NCBI GenBank assembly: GCA_009773165.1
Contig: WOUZ01000006.1
Span: 186,001 to 250,000, forward strand
Direction of reading: 5' to 3'
DNA length: 64,000 bases
Source: Bacteroidota bacterium
GTDB taxonomy: Bacteria > Bacteroidota > Bacteroidia > Bacteroidales > F082
The first letter of the stretch is position 1, and every line of letters starts with the position of its first letter. Position numbers and translations under genes: made by a program. A model generated the notes under the pieces. That model saw only the letters and a list, made by a program, of their open reading frames with translations. It was not told the DNA's origin and did not search any database. This document shows positions 19,971 through 62,280 of this stretch, piece after piece.

Positions 19971-20255
19971 TCACTCACTTTGTATTGGTTTCAGTTGTCT
20001 GCGCTTGAAAAAAGCGAAAACGAAACCTGCAATTACGTGTCCAATTATTACTTTTACAATCAGAAAAAGTCGACTAAGGCCATATTCGTCATGTCCTAAA
20101 ATTATTAGTTCGGATTGGGTCATCCAAACCATAAAGCCAATTAGAAGTCCCAAATTAATCATGAAAAACATCCAAAATTTTGTCCACCTTGAAAGCCAAT
20201 AAAGACTTATCAACCAAAGTAGAAGCGGTATCATCATTATTAAAGCGATTTCCAT
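19971..20255 (-). CDS. Small hypothetical membrane protein (94 aa)
   Basis: Three hydrophobic segments (about residues 4-20, 26-46 and 61-83) are separated by short loops, with a basic tail FKRRQLKPIQSE that would be cytoplasmic. No recognised motif. It is a lone gene, with a TACCTTTG-like box about 200 bp upstream near 20450 on the minus strand. Function unknown. Confidence 0.55.
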   Translation of the reverse strand: MEIALIMMIPLLLWLISLYWLSRWTKFWMFFMINLGLLIGFMVWMTQSELIILGHDEYGLSRLFLIVKVIIGHVIAGFVFAFFKRRQLKPIQSE

Positions 20256-20544
20256 TTTTTAAATTAGGTTCAATGATTGTAAACCTGCGCTATAAAGAGG
20301 TTATTTCTTAACAATTTTCAGCCAAAATAATTTCTACCCAACTGATATAATGCGGTTTTAAAAATAAACTCCAAATAAAGTTTATGATTATTTTTATAGT
20401 TGAAATCTGGTTTTCCAGCATGACAATAGTTTGTTATCGTTGTATCATTCAAAGGTAAACATGTTTTTTATTGATACACCATATGCACCGGAGTTATAAT
20501 TGAAAAAACATTTAATGACCTCCTTAATTACATACAGCTGGGCT

Positions 20545-20997
20545 TTAATTCAAGTCTTTTTTAAGCACAATCATGTGTTTTAATTGGATTCCATTTTCAA
20601 ATATGGGTTCCGGATAATTATCAATAAAGTATCTGTGCTTTATTTCATATATTTCAAAACCAACCTTCTGATATAAATACAGTTGCTTAACGCCTGCGTC
20701 TCCTGTTCCAATTATGATCTTCTTAAATCCTTTTTCCTTCGCAAGACTTATGGCATCTTTTAACAATTCCTGACCTATCCCTTGTCCCTGGAAAGCTGTA
20801 TCTACAGCAATATTTTTTATTTCTACTGTATCGCTACTTATCGTTTGCAAAGCAAAAACAGCAATCATCTTATTCTCAAGTTCAAATACATAAATGTCTG
20901 ATTGATGGATATATTTATCGATTGCATCAACCGTTTCATCTGCAAGCAATAGTAAATCGTAAGGTATTTTTACATCCTTTTCTAACAATCTAATCAT
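20545..20997 (-). CDS. GNAT family N-acetyltransferase
   Basis: 150 residues with the acetyl-CoA-binding motif A, NIAVDTAFQGQGIGQELLKDA (core QGQGIG), and a motif-B end LYLYQKVGFEIYEI. It transfers acetyl from acetyl-CoA to an unknown amine. Its start overlaps the end of another GNAT gene by 8 bp, so the two are cotranscribed. Such pairs are common in accessory regions. The substrate cannot be inferred. Confidence 0.8.
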   Translation of the reverse strand: MIRLLEKDVKIPYDLLLLADETVDAIDKYIHQSDIYVFELENKMIAVFALQTISSDTVEIKNIAVDTAFQGQGIGQELLKDAISLAKEKGFKKIIIGTGDAGVKQLYLYQKVGFEIYEIKHRYFIDNYPEPIFENGIQLKHMIVLKKDLN

Positions 20998-21394
20998 GGG
21001 AAACTAATTTTTGGCATGGAACTTCAAAAATCGAACCTATTCGTTTATAACCAACATTTTCATAATATCCATCAACATCCGACATTACATAAACAACTTG
21101 ATCGGGATAATCCTGATAAATACATTCCATTAGTTTTCTTCCAATGTCTCTTCCCCGGCAGGCTGACATTACCAGCAAATCACACACATAAATATATGCG
21201 CCAAAATCATTTAACGAACGGGAAAATCCGCATAAAACATCTTCATGAAAGGCAACATAGGTTATTGATGTCGCTAAAGCTACTTTATATTTCTCAGCCA
21301 GAGTTTCATTGGCATAATCCCATCCTTCTTCATCCTCAATCATTTTCATCAATTTGCTTTCATCGGAAAGCTTGTTGTATTTTCTTATCTGCAT
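20990..21394 (-). CDS. GNAT family N-acetyltransferase
   Basis: A short (134 aa) GNAT with motif A around VCDLLVMSACRGRDIGRKL (core RGRDIG) and the VGYKRIG end. It resembles small ribosomal-protein or aminoglycoside-like N-acetyltransferases in layout, but the substrate is unknown. It is first of a two-gene unit; its stop lies inside the start region of the second GNAT. Confidence 0.78.
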   Translation of the reverse strand: MQIRKYNKLSDESKLMKMIEDEEGWDYANETLAEKYKVALATSITYVAFHEDVLCGFSRSLNDFGAYIYVCDLLVMSACRGRDIGRKLMECIYQDYPDQVVYVMSDVDGYYENVGYKRIGSIFEVPCQKLVSHD

Positions 21395-21457
21395 TTTGAT
21401 TTGTTAATTGATTTGCTAATTGTTTGGATGAACGTAATTTAACCTAACCCGAAAAGT

Positions 21458-21685
21458 TTAATTGTACATATGTATCAATGTAGTATTACTAGAATTAATC
21501 TCAGCCCAAGCGACTATAAATCTGATATCCATAAATCTAAAAACTAACCTCAATCTGATTTGAAATAGTGTTGCTGGAGTTGAAACCTGTTTATCCGCCA
21601 TTTCGGCATATCCATTTTCACCTTCCATTCTTATGGAAGTGAAGATTACTGCAAAATATGAAGGTTGTAACGTTTTTGCTATCAT
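21458..21685 (-). pseudogene. Truncated antibiotic-biosynthesis-monooxygenase-like gene
   Basis: The first 33 codons (MIAKTLQPSYFAVIFTSIRM then EGENGYAEMADK) match, from memory, the start of small ABM-fold heme-oxygenase-like proteins of about 95-100 residues, which continue with a PGFLGVES-type block. Here the frame instead runs into unrelated basic and hydrophobic sequence (QVSTPATLFQIRLRLVFRF...) and stops at 75 codons. None of the other minus-strand frames restores the family. It overlaps the DinB-like gene by 4 bp (ATGA). I call it broken by deletion or replacement of its 3' part. Confidence 0.45.
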
Positions 21686-22152
21686 TTGTACTCATCGATT
21701 AATTCCTGAATCTCGCTAAAATGCAACTCAATATGCCCCAAATATCCTTCAATCATTTGTCGAAGAGTGACTGTCGTTCCATCAAAACTTTGCCACGAAT
21801 TATCAAGCTTCGACATGTCAACCGATTTAATCACCTGAATCATATGCAGGTTATAGTATTTCCAAAGTTGAATGAGTATAAACCAATCAGCATTTTCATA
21901 ATCCTGCAGCGAAATCCACAAATCATTATGTTGCTGATAATCCGGGAACTCAAGCTTCGCTGTGCATTGCAACCGAATCATCCGTTGATGATTATTTGCA
22001 GCGGAATCGATCAAATGCCCAAGAATCTGCTTAATTGTCCTGTTTTGGTTATTTCTCCTGTTCGAAATTTTATCAACTGGCAGATCAATCAATTGCTGCT
22101 CCCAGGTATCAATAAAGGTTAGGATTCCATTCGTAATAGTTGAAAATTCCAT
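21682..22152 (-). CDS. DinB-like four-helix-bundle protein
   Basis: 156 residues, predicted mostly helical, with the DinB/YfiT pattern: a helix-1 tail NRTIKQILGHLIDSAANNHQRM (metal His region), a central WFILIQLWKYYNLHMIQV and a C-terminal YLGHIELHFSEIQEL with further His residues. DinB-superfamily proteins bind divalent metal and often act as thiol transferases; the substrate is unknown. It starts at ATG 22152 and is translationally coupled (4-bp overlap) to the truncated monooxygenase-like gene. Confidence 0.75.
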   Translation of the reverse strand: MEFSTITNGILTFIDTWEQQLIDLPVDKISNRRNNQNRTIKQILGHLIDSAANNHQRMIRLQCTAKLEFPDYQQHNDLWISLQDYENADWFILIQLWKYYNLHMIQVIKSVDMSKLDNSWQSFDGTTVTLRQMIEGYLGHIELHFSEIQELIDEYK

Positions 22153-55030: not shown

Positions 55031-56818
55031 CTAATCCAACTTGAGAATGGCAAGAAATGCCGATTGCGGTACTTCTACGTTACCAACCTGGCGCATACGT
55101 TTCTTACCCTTCTTCTGTTTTTCCAACAGTTTCCTTTTACGCGAAATATCACCACCATAACATTTGGCAGTAACGTCTTTTCTTAAGGCTTTCACTGTCT
55201 CTCTGGCAATAATCTTAGCGCCGATTGATGCTTGAATTGCAATGTCAAACTGCTGACGCGGAATGAGTTCCTTCAGTTTTTCGCACATCCTTCGGCCAAA
55301 ATTATATGCATTATCCCTGTGTATCAATGTAGATAAAGCATCAACAGGCTCACTGTTGAGAAGAATATCAAGTTTTACCAGATTTGCCCGCTGATATCCT
55401 TCGATATGGTAGTCGAAAGAAGCATACCCACGTGAAATGGATTTTAATTTGTCGTAAAAATCAAATACAATCTCACTCAATGGCATCTCAAACGTAACTT
55501 CAACACGATCAGAGGTAAGATAAACCTGATTTTTCATGACACCGCGTTTCTCAATACACAGTGTCATAATATTACCAAGGTATTCCGACTTAGAAATAAT
55601 TTGAGCAATAATGTAGGGTTCTTCAATGTAATCCAACTTTGTTACATCAGGTAACCCACTTGGATTATGCACTTCCAACATTTCACCGGAAGTGGTATAT
55701 GCCTTGAACTGGACATTGGGTACAGTTGTAATAACATCCATATCGAACTCCCTGTCGAGACGCTCCTGAATGATTTCCATATGCAGCAATCCAAGAAAAC
55801 CGCAACGAAATCCAAAACCTAAAGCAACTGATGACTCCGGCTCAAATACAAGGGAGGCATCGTTTAACTGAAGTTTTTCAATTGACGCTCTCAGTTCTTC
55901 ATAATCATCGGCATCTATAGGGTAGATACCTGCAAATACCATTGGTTTAACATTTTCAAACCCATCGATGGCAACCTGACTGGCTCTGCCAACGTGAGTA
56001 ATAGTATCGCCAACTTTTACTTCTTTACTCGATTTAATCCCAGAAATAATATATCCAACATCACCCACCGACATCTTCTGCCGTGGAAACTGTTTCAATT
56101 TCAATACTCCGATTTCATCTGCGTGATATTCTTTTCCGGTAGCCATAAACTTCACATGGTCATTAGATGACATGGTGCCATTCATGATTCTGAAATAGGC
56201 TATAATTCCTCTGAAAGAGTTAAAGACAGAATCAAAAATCAACGCCTGAAGTGGCGCCTGAGGATCACCTTTCGGTGCAGGAACACGATGAATAATGGCG
56301 GCCAAAACTTCATCGATTCCAAATCCTGTTTTTGCACTTACCCTTAACACATCTTGGCGTTCACACCCAATTAAATCAATGATCTGATCTTCAACTTCAT
56401 CGGGCATAGCACTTTCCATGTCAATTTTGTTAAGGACAGGAATTATTTCAAGATCATGATTCAGAGCAAGATATAAATTCGAAATTGTTTGTGCCTGAAT
56501 TCCCTGGGTGGCGTCAACTACTAATAAAGCACCTTCACAGGCTGCAATGGATCGTGAAACTTCATATGAAAAGTCCACATGTCCGGGAGTGTCAATTAAA
56601 TTTAGGATATAGTTCTTGCCTTCAAAAGGATATTCCATTTGAATGGCGTGACTTTTTATTGTAATTCCTCTTTCGCGTTCAAGATCCATGCTATCAAGCA
56701 CCTGATCCTTTTGATCGCGCTCGCTCAAGGTATGTGTTTGCTGTAATAATCGATCAGCCAAAGTGCTTTTACCGTGATCGATATGGGCAATTATACAGAA
56801 ATTTCGGATATTCTTCAT
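55031..56818 (-). CDS. lepA: Elongation factor 4 (back-translocating GTPase)
   Basis: 595 residues from ATG 56818 (typical length), starting [20 protein letters not shown]1 AHIDHGKS, G2 [11 protein letters not shown]3 DTPGHVDF, G4 NKID and G5 are in order. Domains II, III and V follow, and the LepA-specific C-terminal domain includes [26 protein letters not shown]. It binds ribosomes and is thought to act in stress or initiation/assembly. No upstream lepB in this window. The stop abuts that of gtrA on the other strand. Confidence 0.95.
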
Positions 56819-57033
56819 TGTCTGCAAAATTACAACATAAAGTGCAATTTTCAGAATTGAATATGCAAAAAAGATTTACGAGCTATCTATTTGATATTAA
56901 AACAGATAACTGTAAAACAAACATGCTTTCATAAAAGTCAGTCGACTTGACTATTCTTTTAAACATACTTAAATCAGTTCGTTAGAATTCGAAACTTATA
57001 TTTATAGATTCCAAGTATGTTCATTTAGTATGA

Positions 57034-60000
57034 CTAATAATAATACCCTTCCTCACGGGATGTTAGCTCAACAGGATAATGACCCAAATAAATATTACCC
57101 AATGTTCCGTCAATGGAAATTTTATCGCCAGTGTATATCCTTCGGCCATCAAGATCGCTGGATTTATTCTGCTCATCGACTAACATGCTTGAACAGTTTA
57201 CAACACATATTTTTCCAAGCCTGACAGCTGTAACAGCAGCATGAGAGGTAGCACCACCACGCGCGGTCAGCAAACCATCGCAAGCAAAGATCATCCCAAT
57301 ATCATCAGGTACCGTATCTGGCCTTATGAGTATTACATGGTCATCCGGATAGGTTGTACGCAACATTTCTATATCCTTTTCATCGAAAGCAGCAATACCA
57401 TTCATTGCTCCTCCCCCGATTCCAATGCCTCTTCCAAGTAGAACCATTTCATCAGGTGATTTCAGAAAAACCATTGTTTCCTGACTGATATCCAGTTCCT
57501 GATCACGGGTTTGAAGGATGTATAAGTCATCAGGATTTTCCGATTCAAAGGTAAACTCGATTTCCTGAGGCGAATAGCCATGATTCTCAGTGAGGTCGGA
57601 GGCCAAATCGAAAAGGCGCTTGTAAATTGCAGGATACTGTGTCTGCAATGAAGGACCTTGCAAATCAGCTTGTTTACGCTGAGTTTCGCTTACAGGCATT
57701 GGCTTGACAAGTCCTGAAACAATATCTTCGCCCTGACTGCGAGAGGTGAAATCACCATATAAATGAACCCCGGGGCGCCCTCTTTTTGGATTTTGTGTAA
57801 ACAGAACCCCTGTACCACTATGATCGTGAAGATTGCCAAAAATCATCTGCTGTACTATTACTGCAGTGCCCCAGTTATCAGAAATCTGTAGATGTTTGCG
57901 GTAAACGTAGGCGCGCTCTGACGACCATGACTCGAAAACAATGTTAATGGTACTCATAAGTTGCTTGAACAAATTCTGCTCAAGATCGACAAATTTATCG
58001 GAGAGCACTTTCTTGTAAGCCAATGCGATAGATCGCATATCAGCAGATTCAAATTCAACTTTATTGCCAACTTTCAGCCTCTTTTTAAAATCCGACATCA
58101 CCTTATCGAAAGTGTCACGATCGATTCCATGCGCCATACCCCAACTTTGAAGCAATCTTCGGTATGAATCCCAAACCGACCAGCTATAATTTTGCAGGTT
58201 GCTGATTTTCTCAACAAGTTCGTCGTTTAACCCAACATTAAGAATCGTATCCATCGCTCCTGGCATTGAGATAGCAGTTCCTGACCTCACAGATAACATT
58301 AGCGGGTTGGATGGATCTCCAAATTTTTTCCCACTTAATCGTTCAATACGAGCTATTTGCCTATGTACAAGTTCATGCAACTCTTTGCGCAAAACCCCTA
58401 AAGCCATTATTGTTGTATTTCTTCTAAAAACTTCGGAAGTAATAACGAAACCAGGTGGCACAGGGAAGTTTTTCAAGTAGAGGTTTTTTAAGTGATAAGC
58501 TTTGCTTCCAAGAAAAACCTGATTATCCATTTTTGGTGTTCGTTCATCTAAAGGACTTATTACCAACTCATTATTATATGTCATAATATCATTGATAAGG
58601 TTTTTATCAAGTTTATCCGACATATTTCCCAGTGAATAAAGTATCTTGGAGATGAAATTATCCAGAGGTTGAACTAAAAAAGCTTCAGCAATAACGTCTC
58701 TGTGAAACTCTTCCGATTTTTTAACGAGCAATTGGTTCATCTCCTTCTCCGATAAAGTTTGTGAAGGATCAAACAACTGAGGAACAACAACTTTGAGCGG
58801 ATATTCATAAGATTTTAAAAAATGCTTGATGATGATCCTTCGGATATCCTGAGCAATAAATTGAAAAATATTAATGTACTGATCGAAAGAGAAGCTACGC
58901 GATGTTAAGCTGTACTTAAGCATCTGAAGGTTTGAATTAAAGCTCTGATTGGTAATACCATCCAACTCCAAACCCTCCCTGAAATAATCAAGAATGACGT
59001 AAATTTCTTCAAGAGTTGTAGCAGATATATAATCAAGGTTGATGCGTTCCACCACCTTTTCCATTAAGCGTGTCGCCACTTTCTCCAAACGGAAGGTAAG
59101 CCCAAGAGCTTCAAATTTGTTTTCACGATAAACACCGTACATTGATGGAATGCCTATAGCAATGTGGCGTTTATGATAGATATTTTCCCAACTTTCGCTT
59201 TCCTCAGGATTAAAAATTATCTTGCGAAGGCGGTCCATAAATGAGTAGATGAGTCGAAGAGAACGTTTAAAATCGTTATTTTTCAATGCTTTATCCAGTT
59301 TCTCGATCTCAACCTCAGATATGAAAGGATATCGCTGCAGCAACTGAATGATATTTACCGATTCAAAAGAGTATTTTTCTCTTAAATGTGCATACAGGCT
59401 ATGGATATCGTGGAGGCGCTCCTTATCGTGCTGATTACTTTCGCCAAGCTGATGGAGTAAACTATCAAAAGCCTTTTGCGACAGCATGAGAAGCCCCTCA
59501 GGGTCCGACTGATTTAATACACACAGTTCTTTAAGCATGGAGTGAATTGGAGCAAACCATTCACTTTCTTTATCAACAGCGTTGTAGACATTATGCGGAA
59601 GGAATGGCTTCAGCTTATCTAAATTTCCATCAAACCAAAACTTAAAAATCTTCAATGTCAACCCGATGAGTGTATTATTACTTTCGGTATGAACTTGCTT
59701 TCGAAGAAAATGTACAAGTTTATCCTGCCTTCCGGATATTTCATCCATTGTGGTAGTTACCTTACGTATCTCACCCTCGGCTCCTATTTCGTTGAAATAG
59801 ACAGGAAAAATCCGTGTCAGCTGTTTTACTTTCTTGTAATATGGGGCAATGTTTGAGTTTAAAACTTTTGTGATTTCACGCTGAAAGAGATCTGTATCAC
59901 TAATAAAGATGCCGCCTAACCTCAAATTTACAATCAAAGCACTTAAAAGTTTTTCCATACCTGATTGTGACGATTCGATCAGCTGAAGCCAAACTCTTAT

Positions 60001-61155
60001 ATTCTTGATATGATTTGTATTAACACTCAATTGCCAGTCCTCATCTACATAAACCGTCCCCGGGCTTATAAAACCAAAGCCGATTAGTTTCTTTTCAAAA
60101 TGGTTGATGAGTTCTTTATGTTCACTCTTATCAATGTCAATTACTTTTAAACCAAGCGTTTGCAAAAAGTCAAGCACTGCAGATGTATGACTTAACTTCA
60201 TCTCATCGGCCAGGTTAAAGATAAGGTCCACATAAGGCAGTACTTCGTCCTCCTTGAGCTCATCCATTGTCTGACGTATCAACTTATCCAAGCTCCAAAT
60301 CAGCCGTTCGCCAATAATGTCCATGCCTGGCAGATGAAGAAGGTAAAACACATACTGGAATTTGTGTATGAACTGATTTAGCAAATCGGCAGATGCTGCG
60401 AAACGCTCAGCAATTGATTCATAAACAGTAAGATTACTCAGCAGATCACTTGATTTTAATGACAAACCAAGCTGTAACCGTAGCTCTTCAAAATATACTG
60501 AACCCAATTGTTCAGCTAATTTCAACGCTTCTTCGTCAAGAATCTGATTGTTTTTTTTAATCCACAATTCTATTGCAGAACTTGACTCCCAGAAATCATA
60601 ACATGAGTTAAAGACCTTCATGATGAATTGATGAATTTCTGACTCATAATCTGAAATCGCTGCAACAGAAGGCAGATACCTAACGAGATATTTTGTTGAC
60701 AGATTGTAACTTAATGTATTGACTGATATATTATTATCGAGAATTGAAATGGCAGGAAGTATCAGCTCCTGATGTCGCGGGTTTTTCTTCATAAGGAGTG
60801 AGATAAACTCCAGAATCGTCCTGATAATTGTTGTTGTGAGAGGCACAGGTAATCGCTCACCCAGCATCTTTTCCAGCATTTTCAAAGGTATCAGCAACGC
60901 ATTTGCCGGAATCTCATCTTTGGTATAAAACCATAAATCAGTAATAAGAATTTCACGAAGTTCTTCAATAACAAACTTCCGGTTCGAAAGCGGATGATGG
61001 TATTCAGTGATGCAATCGTTTGCACGTTTTTTTATTCCGAAATAGCTTACTGATAGCTGTATGAATTGCTGATGTTCTTCAGGTATGTAAATATCTCTGT
61101 ATCTGGTCTCTGCGAGGTTTGCCTCCAATGCTTTAGAGATAAATTGTTCACTCAT
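57034..61155 (-). CDS. Large PEP/pyruvate-dikinase-like protein (ATP-grasp plus phosphohistidine domain, no PEP barrel)
   Basis: 1373 residues. Residues 1-880 are helical, without recognised motifs, and make up two thirds of the protein. From about 885 a PPDK/PEP-synthase ATP-grasp domain follows (FLGSKAYHLKNLYLKNFPVP, SVRSGTAISMPGAMDTIL, QMIFGNLHDHSGTGVLFTQN, EFTFESENPDDLYILQTRDQE). Near the C-terminus is a phosphohistidine swivel domain, LTARGGATSHAAVTAVRLGK with His1305. It ends at residue 1373 without the PEP-utilising TIM barrel, so it cannot be a standard PPDK or PEP synthase. The phosphoryl acceptor is unknown. Divergent from gapA. Confidence 0.82.
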   Translation of the reverse strand: MSEQFISKALEANLAETRYRDIYIPEEHQQFIQLSVSYFGIKKRANDCITEYHHPLSNRKFVIEELREILITDLWFYTKDEIPANALLIPLKMLEKMLGERLPVPLTTTIIRTILEFISLLMKKNPRHQELILPAISILDNNISVNTLSYNLSTKYLVRYLPSVAAISDYESEIHQFIMKVFNSCYDFWESSSAIELWIKKNNQILDEEALKLAEQLGSVYFEELRLQLGLSLKSSDLLSNLTVYESIAERFAASADLLNQFIHKFQYVFYLLHLPGMDIIGERLIWSLDKLIRQTMDELKEDEVLPYVDLIFNLADEMKLSHTSAVLDFLQTLGLKVIDIDKSEHKELINHFEKKLIGFGFISPGTVYVDEDWQLSVNTNHIKNIRVWLQLIESSQSGMEKLLSALIVNLRLGGIFISDTDLFQREITKVLNSNIAPYYKKVKQLTRIFPVYFNEIGAEGEIRKVTTTMDEISGRQDKLVHFLRKQVHTESNNTLIGLTLKIFKFWFDGNLDKLKPFLPHNVYNAVDKESEWFAPIHSMLKELCVLNQSDPEGLLMLSQKAFDSLLHQLGESNQHDKERLHDIHSLYAHLREKYSFESVNIIQLLQRYPFISEVEIEKLDKALKNNDFKRSLRLIYSFMDRLRKIIFNPEESESWENIYHKRHIAIGIPSMYGVYRENKFEALGLTFRLEKVATRLMEKVVERINLDYISATTLEEIYVILDYFREGLELDGITNQSFNSNLQMLKYSLTSRSFSFDQYINIFQFIAQDIRRIIIKHFLKSYEYPLKVVVPQLFDPSQTLSEKEMNQLLVKKSEEFHRDVIAEAFLVQPLDNFISKILYSLGNMSDKLDKNLINDIMTYNNELVISPLDERTPKMDNQVFLGSKAYHLKNLYLKNFPVPPGFVITSEVFRRNTTIMALGVLRKELHELVHRQIARIERLSGKKFGDPSNPLMLSVRSGTAISMPGAMDTILNVGLNDELVEKISNLQNYSWSVWDSYRRLLQSWGMAHGIDRDTFDKVMSDFKKRLKVGNKVEFESADMRSIALAYKKVLSDKFVDLEQNLFKQLMSTINIVFESWSSERAYVYRKHLQISDNWGTAVIVQQMIFGNLHDHSGTGVLFTQNPKRGRPGVHLYGDFTSRSQGEDIVSGLVKPMPVSETQRKQADLQGPSLQTQYPAIYKRLFDLASDLTENHGYSPQEIEFTFESENPDDLYILQTRDQELDISQETMVFLKSPDEMVLLGRGIGIGGGAMNGIAAFDEKDIEMLRTTYPDDHVILIRPDTVPDDIGMIFACDGLLTARGGATSHAAVTAVRLGKICVVNCSSMLVDEQNKSSDLDGRRIYTGDKISIDGTLGNIYLGHYPVELTSREEGYYY

Positions 61156-61196
61156 AGTCCATGAATTATTGGTTCATTTATGTTACGATTTTTCGT

Positions 61197-61204
61197 ACTT
61201 TTGA
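61197..61204 (+). promoter_or_regulatory. Candidate -7 promoter box for gapA
   Basis: TACTTTTG, an exact TAnnTTTG match, 68 bp before the gapA ATG. The intervening leader has no ORF. Confidence 0.5.
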
Positions 61205-61272
61205 TGGGTAAATTTAATGATATATCCGAAGATTCAAGGTTCGATAAATAAACTTTTATAAAAAAATTCATT

Positions 61273-62280
61273 ATGTCAAAGATTAAAATCGCCATTAACG
61301 GTTTTGGCCGTATTGGAAGAAATGTTTTCAAGATTGCTGAAGAACGCAGCAACATTGAGATCGTTGGTATCAACGACCTCACAAGTACTAAAGTTTTAGC
61401 TCACCTGCTCAAGTATGATTCAACACAAGGTCGTTTCAACGGCACAGTAACTTTTGATGAAAACTCAATTACTGTAAACGGAAAACGTGTTCCTGTAACA
61501 GCTGAACGCAGTCCGATTAACATTAAATGGGCAGTAGCTCCTGATGTTGTTGTTGAGTCAACAGGCATTTTCCGTTCAAAGGAAAGCTCAAAAGGTGGAT
61601 ATGGTGATCACTTGAAAAACGGCGCAAAAAAAGTAATCCTTTGCGTTCCTTCAAAAGACCAGATCGATGCTACGATTGTTTTAGGTGTTAACGACAACGA
61701 TCTGAAAGATTCTGATCAATGCGTTTCAAATGCCAGCTGTACAACAAACTGTCTTGCTCCTGTAGCCAAGGTGTTAAATGACCGTTTTGGCATTGAAAAC
61801 GGAATGATGACAACAATTCACTCCTACACCAATGACCAGGTCATCCTTGATGCACCTCATGAAGATTTACGTCGTGCCCGTTCAGCTGCCTTATCACAGA
61901 TCCCAACTTCAACTGGCGCAGCCAAAGCAATCGGCCTGGTTATCCCAGAATTGAGCGGAAAGCTTGATGGACTTGCTGTTCGCGTTCCCACACCAACAGG
62001 TTCCCTCGTTGACCTTGTTGTTAACCTTAAAACTGAAGCTACAAAAGCAGAAATCAATGCTGCTATTAAAGAAGCTGCTGAAGGTCCAATGAAAGGAATT
62101 CTTGAATACACTGAAGATGAAATCGTTTCAATCGACATTGTACACAATTCTCACTCTTCAATCTTCGATGCCAAATCAACGATGGTAATGGGTAAAACTG
62201 TAAAGGTTCTTTCATGGTACGACAATGAGTGGGGTTATTCCTGCAGAGTTGTTGACCTTGCTGAAAAATTCAAATTGTAA
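61273..62280 (+). CDS. gapA: Type I glyceraldehyde-3-phosphate dehydrogenase
   Basis: 335 residues, standard length. NAD-binding GFGRIGRNVFK at 10-20, Asp35 in INDLTS (NAD-type), catalytic Cys156 in SNASCTTNCLAPV and His in HSYTNDQ, all in their usual places. Glycolytic and gluconeogenic enzyme, cytoplasmic. It is divergent from the large dikinase-like gene (118-bp gap), so the two may share regulation. It ends at a strong terminator shared with the convergent M23 gene. Confidence 0.97.
   Translation: MSKIKIAINGFGRIGRNVFKIAEERSNIEIVGINDLTSTKVLAHLLKYDSTQGRFNGTVTFDENSITVNGKRVPVTAERSPINIKWAVAPDVVVESTGIFRSKESSKGGYGDHLKNGAKKVILCVPSKDQIDATIVLGVNDNDLKDSDQCVSNASCTTNCLAPVAKVLNDRFGIENGMMTTIHSYTNDQVILDAPHEDLRRARSAALSQIPTSTGAAKAIGLVIPELSGKLDGLAVRVPTPTGSLVDLVVNLKTEATKAEINAAIKEAAEGPMKGILEYTEDEIVSIDIVHNSHSSIFDAKSTMVMGKTVKVLSWYDNEWGYSCRVVDLAEKFKL

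Follow-up and report, generated by a model that had tools for sequence, protein, structure and literature searches.

A barrel-less PPDK-type dikinase with a large N-terminal half, encoded beside GAPDH genes in Bacteroidales

The window analyzed here is a 64,000-nucleotide stretch of a Bacteroidales genome (contig WOUZ01000006.1, positions 186,001 to 250,000). Close to its end, it encodes a 1373-residue protein, hereafter the dikinase, which is related to pyruvate phosphate dikinase (PPDK) and is transcribed divergently from gapA, the gene of a type I glyceraldehyde-3-phosphate dehydrogenase (GAPDH). The C-terminal part of the dikinase comprises an ATP-grasp domain and a phosphohistidine (swivel) domain (Table 1), its about 870 N-terminal residues match no family convincingly, and the phosphoenolpyruvate (PEP)/pyruvate barrel is absent, which confirms what a preliminary description had noticed from the letters of the window alone. 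Across the family, the phosphotransfer machinery and a region other than the barrel are conserved, and the gene is linked to GAPDH.

Table 1. Features of the dikinase locus (window coordinates; aa, amino acids; ORF, open reading frame)
Feature	Position	Strand	Basis or remark
Dikinase gene	57034..61155	(-)	ATG start, 1373 aa, barrel-less PPDK type
PPDK-type ATP-grasp domain, residues 882-1220	57496..58512	(-)	Pfam PPDK_N, aligned to solved PPDK chains
Phosphohistidine (swivel) domain, residues 1272-1353	57097..57342	(-)	Pfam PEP-utilizers
His1305 codon, predicted phosphate carrier	57241..57243	(-)	Aligns with PPDK His455
Variable all-helical stretch, solenoid-like, residues about 15-360	60076..61113	(-)	Predicted model
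Conserved core 1, residues 351-500, candidate acceptor/effector site	59656..60105	(-)	Column identity
Conserved core 2, residues 651-710, contains YHKRHIAIGIPSMYG	59026..59205	(-)	Column identity
gapA, type I GAPDH, divergent neighbor	61273..62280	(+)	TIGR01534, 437 bits against a cut-off of 367
Intergenic stretch, 117 bp, between the divergent dikinase and gapA	61156..61272	.	ORF coordinates
lepA-like GTPase gene, downstream neighbor	55031..56827	(-)	Named by eye

The dikinase and its two halves

Pfam reports PPDK_N (E 6.9e-34; 118 bits against a cut-off of 27) and PEP-utilizers (E 1.8e-15; 56.7 bits, cut-off 23.1) for the two C-terminal domains, both of which are covered by the alignment with the solved PPDK chains 9pzl and 1kbl (E 4.1e-78), and its only further rows at E ≤ 1, ARM_Cnot1 (0.021) and ZMYND11_CC (0.66), lie below their cut-offs. 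Residues K885, R957, E1200, Q1215, R1217, T1303, and H1305 align with K22, R92, E323, Q335, R337, T453, and H455 of the Clostridium symbiosum PPDK, which we take to be catalytic under that numbering. All seven are invariant in 25/25 non-redundant members (those left of 108 rows after filtering by length and at 75% identity, in an alignment that omits the window's own gene, L115, together with L116 and L118, from genomes already in L020 and L019). The position of PPDK Asp321, in turn, is a Glu in 25/25 members (E1198 in the window protein). Both domains are thus intact, as proposed earlier, and the missing barrel stands as well: the reading frame stops right after the His domain, Pfam reports no barrel in the dikinase, and the next frame, 206 bp downstream of the stop, is that of the lepA-like GTPase. 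Either a PEP barrel or a carbohydrate-binding module had been named as a feature that would place the protein in a known class; Pfam, searched at E ≤ 1, identifies neither in the dikinase. The barrel family PF02896 occurs only in separate genes, with exactly one copy in 15/15 carrier genomes; its open frame is 912-950 aa long in 14 of them, and in G551 it has 661 aa and lies close to where a contig begins. With one copy in each of these 15 genomes and no orphan barrel, supply of the barrel in trans is rejected. The window's own genome has a separate 944-aa PPDK frame, and the full-length layout recurs in 104 out of 110 loci (the window's included, 44-100% identity; the other six are cut short), so that the dikinase is not a truncated PPDK.

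Among curated families, the best match is PPDK itself (TIGR01828; 379.3 bits against a whole-protein cut-off of 843.45), followed by NF004531/PRK05878 (293.1 bits, cut-off 456), a model that presumably covers the VadK lineage. The PEP synthase models score 75 and 65 bits (TIGR01418, 65 against 739.75), and the rifamycin phosphotransferase (Rph) model NF041857 scores 30.9 bits (cut-off 999); other families likewise score far below PPDK. A phylogeny against PPDK, PEP synthase, Rph, and glucan, water dikinase (GWD) had been suggested; run against PPDKs and barrel-less proteins, it places the family in a clade of its own. In this tree of the ATP-grasp and His region, 13/13 family rows share one branch (100/100 support), which lies outside the PPDKs of Bacteroidales and other phyla, as well as outside four barrel-less proteins from Rhodococcus, Streptomyces, Methylocella, and Aquabacterium, whose own group is supported only 90/57. 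The Rhodococcus and Streptomyces plasmid proteins act here as stand-ins for VadK. The tree has a midpoint root and a long family stem, its barrel-less rows have long branches and an odd letter make-up, and L169 falls below the length filter; such a rooting does not fix the point of origin, but the family is not nested in the PPDKs of its host group.

The dikinase and PPDK have in common an ATP-grasp followed by a phosphohistidine domain, with the same key residues, but the dikinase lacks the PEP barrel, carries 870 further N-terminal residues and the Glu at the Asp321 position, and forms a separate clade. GWD and phosphoglucan, water dikinase use the same general chemistry. However, the His precedes the ATP-binding domain in GWD, so that the domain order differs, and the dikinase lacks a match to a carbohydrate-binding module, although a structural relative may be present. 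The domain order of Rph differs from that of the dikinase too, in which the extra domain is N-terminal. With 379 bits for PPDK against 31 for Rph, and no carbohydrate-binding module at E ≤ 1, the suggested likeness to Rph or GWD is not supported beyond shared chemistry. What is common to Rph, the HpeHI-type two-component dikinases, and the dikinase is a swivelling His between the ATP-grasp and a non-PEP acceptor domain (PMC4844700, PMC12167813). Similarly, VadK (Rv1127c) has lost the barrel, keeps the ATP-grasp and His domains, and is encoded near the affected pathway, but it is reported as a protein of about 50 kDa with no large extra domain (PMC13400623), and the dikinase is below the NF004531 cut-off. 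We file the dikinase as a variant of the PPDK-like dikinases that is not PPDK, PEP synthase, Rph, GWD, or VadK.

Conservation divides the N-terminal half into distinct segments. Among the 25 non-redundant members, residues 61-350 have a mean column identity of 0.46 with 6 invariant positions out of 290, as compared with 0.80 and 52/150 for core 1 and 0.81 and 21/60 for core 2. The ATP-grasp (0.71, 86/345) and His (0.71, 25/100) domains are thus less conserved than the two cores, which makes a functional site likely there. Charged or His residues account for 17 of the 52 invariants of core 1, as in a ligand site. The cores are therefore likely candidates, judged by conservation, for a ligand or acceptor site, since a mere scaffold would hardly be held so tightly.

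No convincing match is found for this half in Pfam, NCBIfam, PHROGs, or PDB sequences, so that the unassigned N-terminus noted earlier is real. Against PDB sequences, profile A1 returns no match at E ≤ 10, the diverse profile A4 a best E of 0.094 (to a designed repeat), and the core profile A6 a best E of 1.3. NCBIfam and PHROGs match 0/17 members at E ≤ 0.01, and no Pfam family is reported in more than two of 15 members. The lowest Pfam E, 3.6e-4 for AbiJ_NTD4 in 1/15 members (cut-offs being shown for the first member only), is taken as a chance match among helical repeats. That no family matches does not argue for a new fold. AlphaFold models, each built with 26 rows in which the homologues are 59-86% identical to the window protein, reach a mean predicted local distance difference test (pLDDT) of 70.6 and a predicted template modeling score (pTM) of 0.46 for residues 1-880, and are weak for residues 340-1373 (pLDDT 62.6, pTM 0.42). 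The structure prediction suggested for residues 1-880 thus yields only part of an answer: residues about 15-360 are modeled as helices only, with ten-residue blocks mostly at pLDDT 73-93, but the conserved cores are not confidently folded. Searches with the 1-880 model, in which the cores are poorly modeled, return generic helical repeats and solenoids only: Foldseek reports no match at E ≤ 0.001 (best 1.5e-3, TM 0.20), and the best VIA hit has a Z of 13.3 with a root-mean-square deviation of 16.1 over 328 aligned residues.

Distribution and association with GAPDH

The gene is present in 34 of the 37 genomes of its own taxonomic family (its own included) among 61 close genomes, and in one genome of another family (G041). 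It is in pieces in four of the 34 (G002, G030, G031, and G033), and G012, G015, and G019, of the same family, return PPDK-type matches only. In a sample of the order Bacteroidales, 33/393 genomes, across 16 taxonomic families, carry it. The scan of species-genome contigs found at least 585 stretches, at least 548 of which were confirmed, and the best 80 of these were used; their source labels read Bacteroidales, Bacteroidia, or Bacteroidetes in 76 cases, the remaining four being Bacteroidaceae (L051), Candidatus Limimorpha equi (L063), 'bacterium F082' (L065), and Fibrobacter (L108). This last homologue, 60% identical to the window's, lies on a 4-kb contig labeled Fibrobacter sp., perhaps through a binning error. 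Two metagenome-assembled genomes, JAEEON01 (L088, L101) and CAMJRR01 (L061, L103), have two gene-bearing contigs each, that is, two copies or mixed bins. The class and phylum samples, which lie within the phylum and contain few genomes of the own order, return the own genome only (1/295 in the class with profile A4; 1/395 in the phylum with profile A1), and core profile A6 adds three weak phylum matches (E 0.003-0.03), all counted as chance, one of which contains a stop. So far, a Bacteroidales-only distribution holds for the samples searched. Of 55 pattern stretches among viral sequences, none is a relative, and plasmids searched for the N-terminal core return no match. A role in anti-phage defense was considered and dropped, PADLOC giving 0 matches for the whole protein.

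Gene neighborhoods were compared in 94 loci, namely the window, the best 80 of the at least 548 stretches, and 13 distant stretches (L109 and L154, on contigs of equal length, are apparently one locus counted twice). GAPDH was assigned by similarity cluster, the 14 GAPDHs of the window and the distant stretches also looking right in an alignment, and gene starts and distances are those of mechanically called ORFs. Of the 94 loci, 65 include a GAPDH-family gene within the stretch, and many of the 29 without one are cut by contig ends. The divergent arrangement of the window, with a spacing of 3-186 bp, is seen in 32/94 loci including the window, plus L071 and L111, where the mechanical starts overlap. 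In distant genomes, GAPDH stands in tandem directly upstream of the dikinase, directly downstream, or both, and it is within about 2 kb in 10 of the 13 distant stretches. The GTPase cluster of the lepA-like gene, which includes other GTPases, reaches 21 neighbor counts, and is recurrent, but less so than GAPDH. The gapA neighbor had been read as a hint at central carbon or storage: the association proves meaningful, as it persists through many families of Bacteroidales, but nothing in the data points to storage.

The downstream GAPDH homologue of distant genomes is 414-417 aa long (one is longer by its mechanical start; examples are L148:11915-13165 and L152:5336-6583, and also L156) and reaches 283-291 bits with TIGR01534 (cut-off 367) in the three scanned out of seven seen. 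In all seven, the catalytic Cys (SCTT) and the His region are retained, and Gly-Arg occupies the dinucleotide site, where gapA has Asp-Leu in the alignment; Gly-Arg at this site would fit the use of NADP. The homologue also possesses extra loops. This 417-aa type (>500 bits) occurs in 18/33 carriers versus 0/26 non-carriers, hand-picked and not random among the genomes without a match (Fisher p 1.8e-6, relatedness ignored). It is the immediate same-strand downstream neighbor of the dikinase in 14 of the 18 and lies on another contig in G041, G524, and G568. In the 15 carriers without it, gapA is immediately divergent in six, divergent at 1.3-8 kb in five, and on another contig in four. A further GAPDH stands in tandem upstream of the dikinase in five carriers (G515, G614, G575, G524, and G691). 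Moreover, two or more GAPDHs (PF02800, >60 bits) are found in 32/33 carriers versus 2/26 of the same non-carriers (G051 and G298; Fisher p 3.6e-13), and the count tracks the dikinase within two taxonomic families (carrier G723 three versus non-carrier G037 one; carrier G787 two versus non-carrier G039 one). As a copy-number control, phosphoglycerate kinase (PGK) is present in two strong copies in 2/14 carriers and 1/6 non-carriers. A third GAPDH type, with frames of 483-529 aa (e.g., G000:C32:86808-87284), was observed in 13/15 carriers lacking the 417-aa type and in 1/26 non-carriers (G051).

Proposed role and its alternatives

The reading that we tentatively favor links the dikinase, which has to date been observed in Bacteroidales alone, to the GAPDH step of glycolysis or gluconeogenesis. 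Judged by the chemistry of the PPDK family, ATP would phosphorylate His1305, releasing AMP and inorganic phosphate (Pi) or pyrophosphate (PPi), and the swivel domain would then carry the phosphate to an N-terminal core formed by residues 351-500 and 651-710, which would replace the missing barrel and bind the acceptor. The helical stretch of residues 15-360 may be a docking or scaffold part. The acceptor itself, the weakest step of the scheme, would be a metabolite of the triose-phosphate/3-phosphoglycerate node. A small-molecule acceptor is preferred because the conserved part is site-like and because the GAPDH partner has been exchanged while the core stayed: as this partner differs between branches and the core is fixed, a shared metabolite fits better than one fixed protein partner.

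Several observations weigh against this proposal. Its activity and ligand are predictions, and the neighborhood names no substrate; the conserved cores are the worst-modeled parts, with pLDDT under 50 (residues 652-681 in core 2) and no confident fold. No GAPDH lies near the dikinase in L149, L154, and the contig-limited L158, and in G727 the 417-aa GAPDH is about 0.86 Mb away. The non-carrier G046 has a second GAPDH match of 26.6 bits, above the family cut-off, which would raise the non-carrier count to 3/26. The p-values ignore relatedness, and the 417-aa GAPDH label needs a single change on the family tree (27/33 carriers plus L039 and L074, both assumed to have no 417-aa GAPDH without a genome search), so that independent events are few. 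Lastly, PGK is present in 14/14 carriers and 6/6 non-carriers, leaving no glycolytic gap to fill. A dikinase that replaces PGK is excluded by its presence in all 20 genomes tested.

Phosphate transfer to a different acceptor, as the preliminary description had it, is plausible, but a serious alternative was not named there, namely regulation of the VadK kind. VadK of M. tuberculosis, a PPDK derivative without the barrel, is reported to autophosphorylate its His and to bind enzymes of the methylcitrate cycle, near whose genes its own gene lies (PMC13400623). By this precedent, the dikinase could be a regulatory histidine kinase, as opposed to a metabolic one, that autophosphorylates His1305, binds GAPDH through its helical N-terminus, and alters how active the isozymes are or how they assemble, a possibility that we consider real though somewhat unlikely taken as a whole; given VadK, a GAPDH-directed regulator may be almost as likely as a small-molecule acceptor. 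A helical-repeat N-terminus suits protein binding, and most carriers have several GAPDHs to balance. However, the tree separates the dikinase from the sampled barrel-less branch, its NF004531 score of 293 bits falls short of the 456 required, and VadK, reported at about 50 kDa, offers no counterpart of the 870-residue part (PMC13400623). Furthermore, the solenoid is the variable part, while polar invariants abound in the conserved part, and the GAPDH partner changes between branches.

Alternatively, the dikinase might act on an unrelated acceptor, such as a nucleotide, a coenzyme, or a cell-wall or secondary metabolite, its proximity to gapA being inherited synteny with no shared pathway. Gene order can indeed persist among bacterial relatives, other neighbors recur too, and some carriers have no GAPDH neighbor, but the tie to GAPDH outlasts three arrangements and a change of GAPDH type, and GAPDH copy number tracks the gene, which makes this explanation improbable. 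A bolder version of the GAPDH-linked dikinase would make it an AMP/PPi-linked glycolytic enzyme catalyzing 1,3-bisphosphoglycerate + AMP + PPi <-> 3-phosphoglycerate + ATP + Pi, or the gluconeogenic reverse, that is, a counterpart of PPDK for an acyl phosphate, in which an acceptor domain of an entirely new kind takes the place of the barrel. As PGK is present in 20/20 genomes, such an enzyme would form a parallel route, as PPDK does to pyruvate kinase; we regard it as quite improbable, a shade more so than the unrelated acceptor. A degenerate PPDK paralogue or broken gene of little function, to which the absent barrel and the Glu at the Asp321 position might point, is largely refuted by family conservation and hardly credible, given 104/110 full-length loci, catalytic residues invariant in 25/25 members, and a clade separate from PPDK at 100/100 support.

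Phosphocarrier modules of the PPDK type have found other uses, with antibiotics and phenols as substrates and, in the case of VadK, in regulation. In the dikinase, such a module is joined to a large half, acceptor or sensor, without a described relative, and gene order ties it to GAPDH, which is among the most thoroughly studied enzymes. While the phosphotransfer module is already known, no publication among the open-licence PubMed Central papers listed describes the family, the 870-residue partner, its position before the ATP-grasp domain, or the link with GAPDH, and 'phosphoglycerate dikinase' occurs in one listed paper, on rice proteomics. Should phosphate be transferred at the GAPDH step, central carbon metabolism in Bacteroidales, many of which have been seen only in metagenomes from the rumen and elsewhere, would include a reaction not described before. 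If the dikinase instead regulates GAPDH, this would suggest that PPDKs without the barrel turned into controllers of metabolism on more than one occasion.

Other PPDK-type genes and minor observations

The window's own genome encodes two more PPDK_N proteins, of 999 and 1024 aa (L002 952-3951, minus strand, contig C29; L003 85-3159, plus strand, contig C1), with a weak, sub-cut-off response-regulator match in front. Like the dikinase, they carry PPDK_N behind a long N-terminus, but unlike it they have no PEP-utilizers match at E ≤ 0.001, and they form a further family of non-canonical PPDK_N proteins encoded alongside it. On plasmids of Methylocella tundrae (L181 2053-5521) and Aquabacterium olei (L182 1960-5527), a barrel-less PPDK-like gene comes directly after a gene of 631-648 aa that resembles DUF47/PhoU (with a sub-cut-off DUF47 match in Aquabacterium), perhaps as a two-gene system. 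The DUF47-like gene was considered as a split homologue of the N-terminal half; for the Aquabacterium gene, hhalign against the N-terminus gives Prob 0.1 and E 0.65, and thus no support for homology.

Regarding the neighborhoods, two ORFs that look insertion-element-like by eye lie between the dikinase and divergent gapA in L146 (9472-10829). In two distant genomes (L150 5048-7534 and L151 12839-16999), the dikinase-GAPDH pair is flanked by ORFs that we take to be hydrogenase-maturation-like (HydF/HydE) and hydrogenase-subunit-like. Elsewhere in the window, positions 20001-22000 have the lowest G+C content among the 2-kb blocks (0.336) and the strongest GC skew (-0.18).

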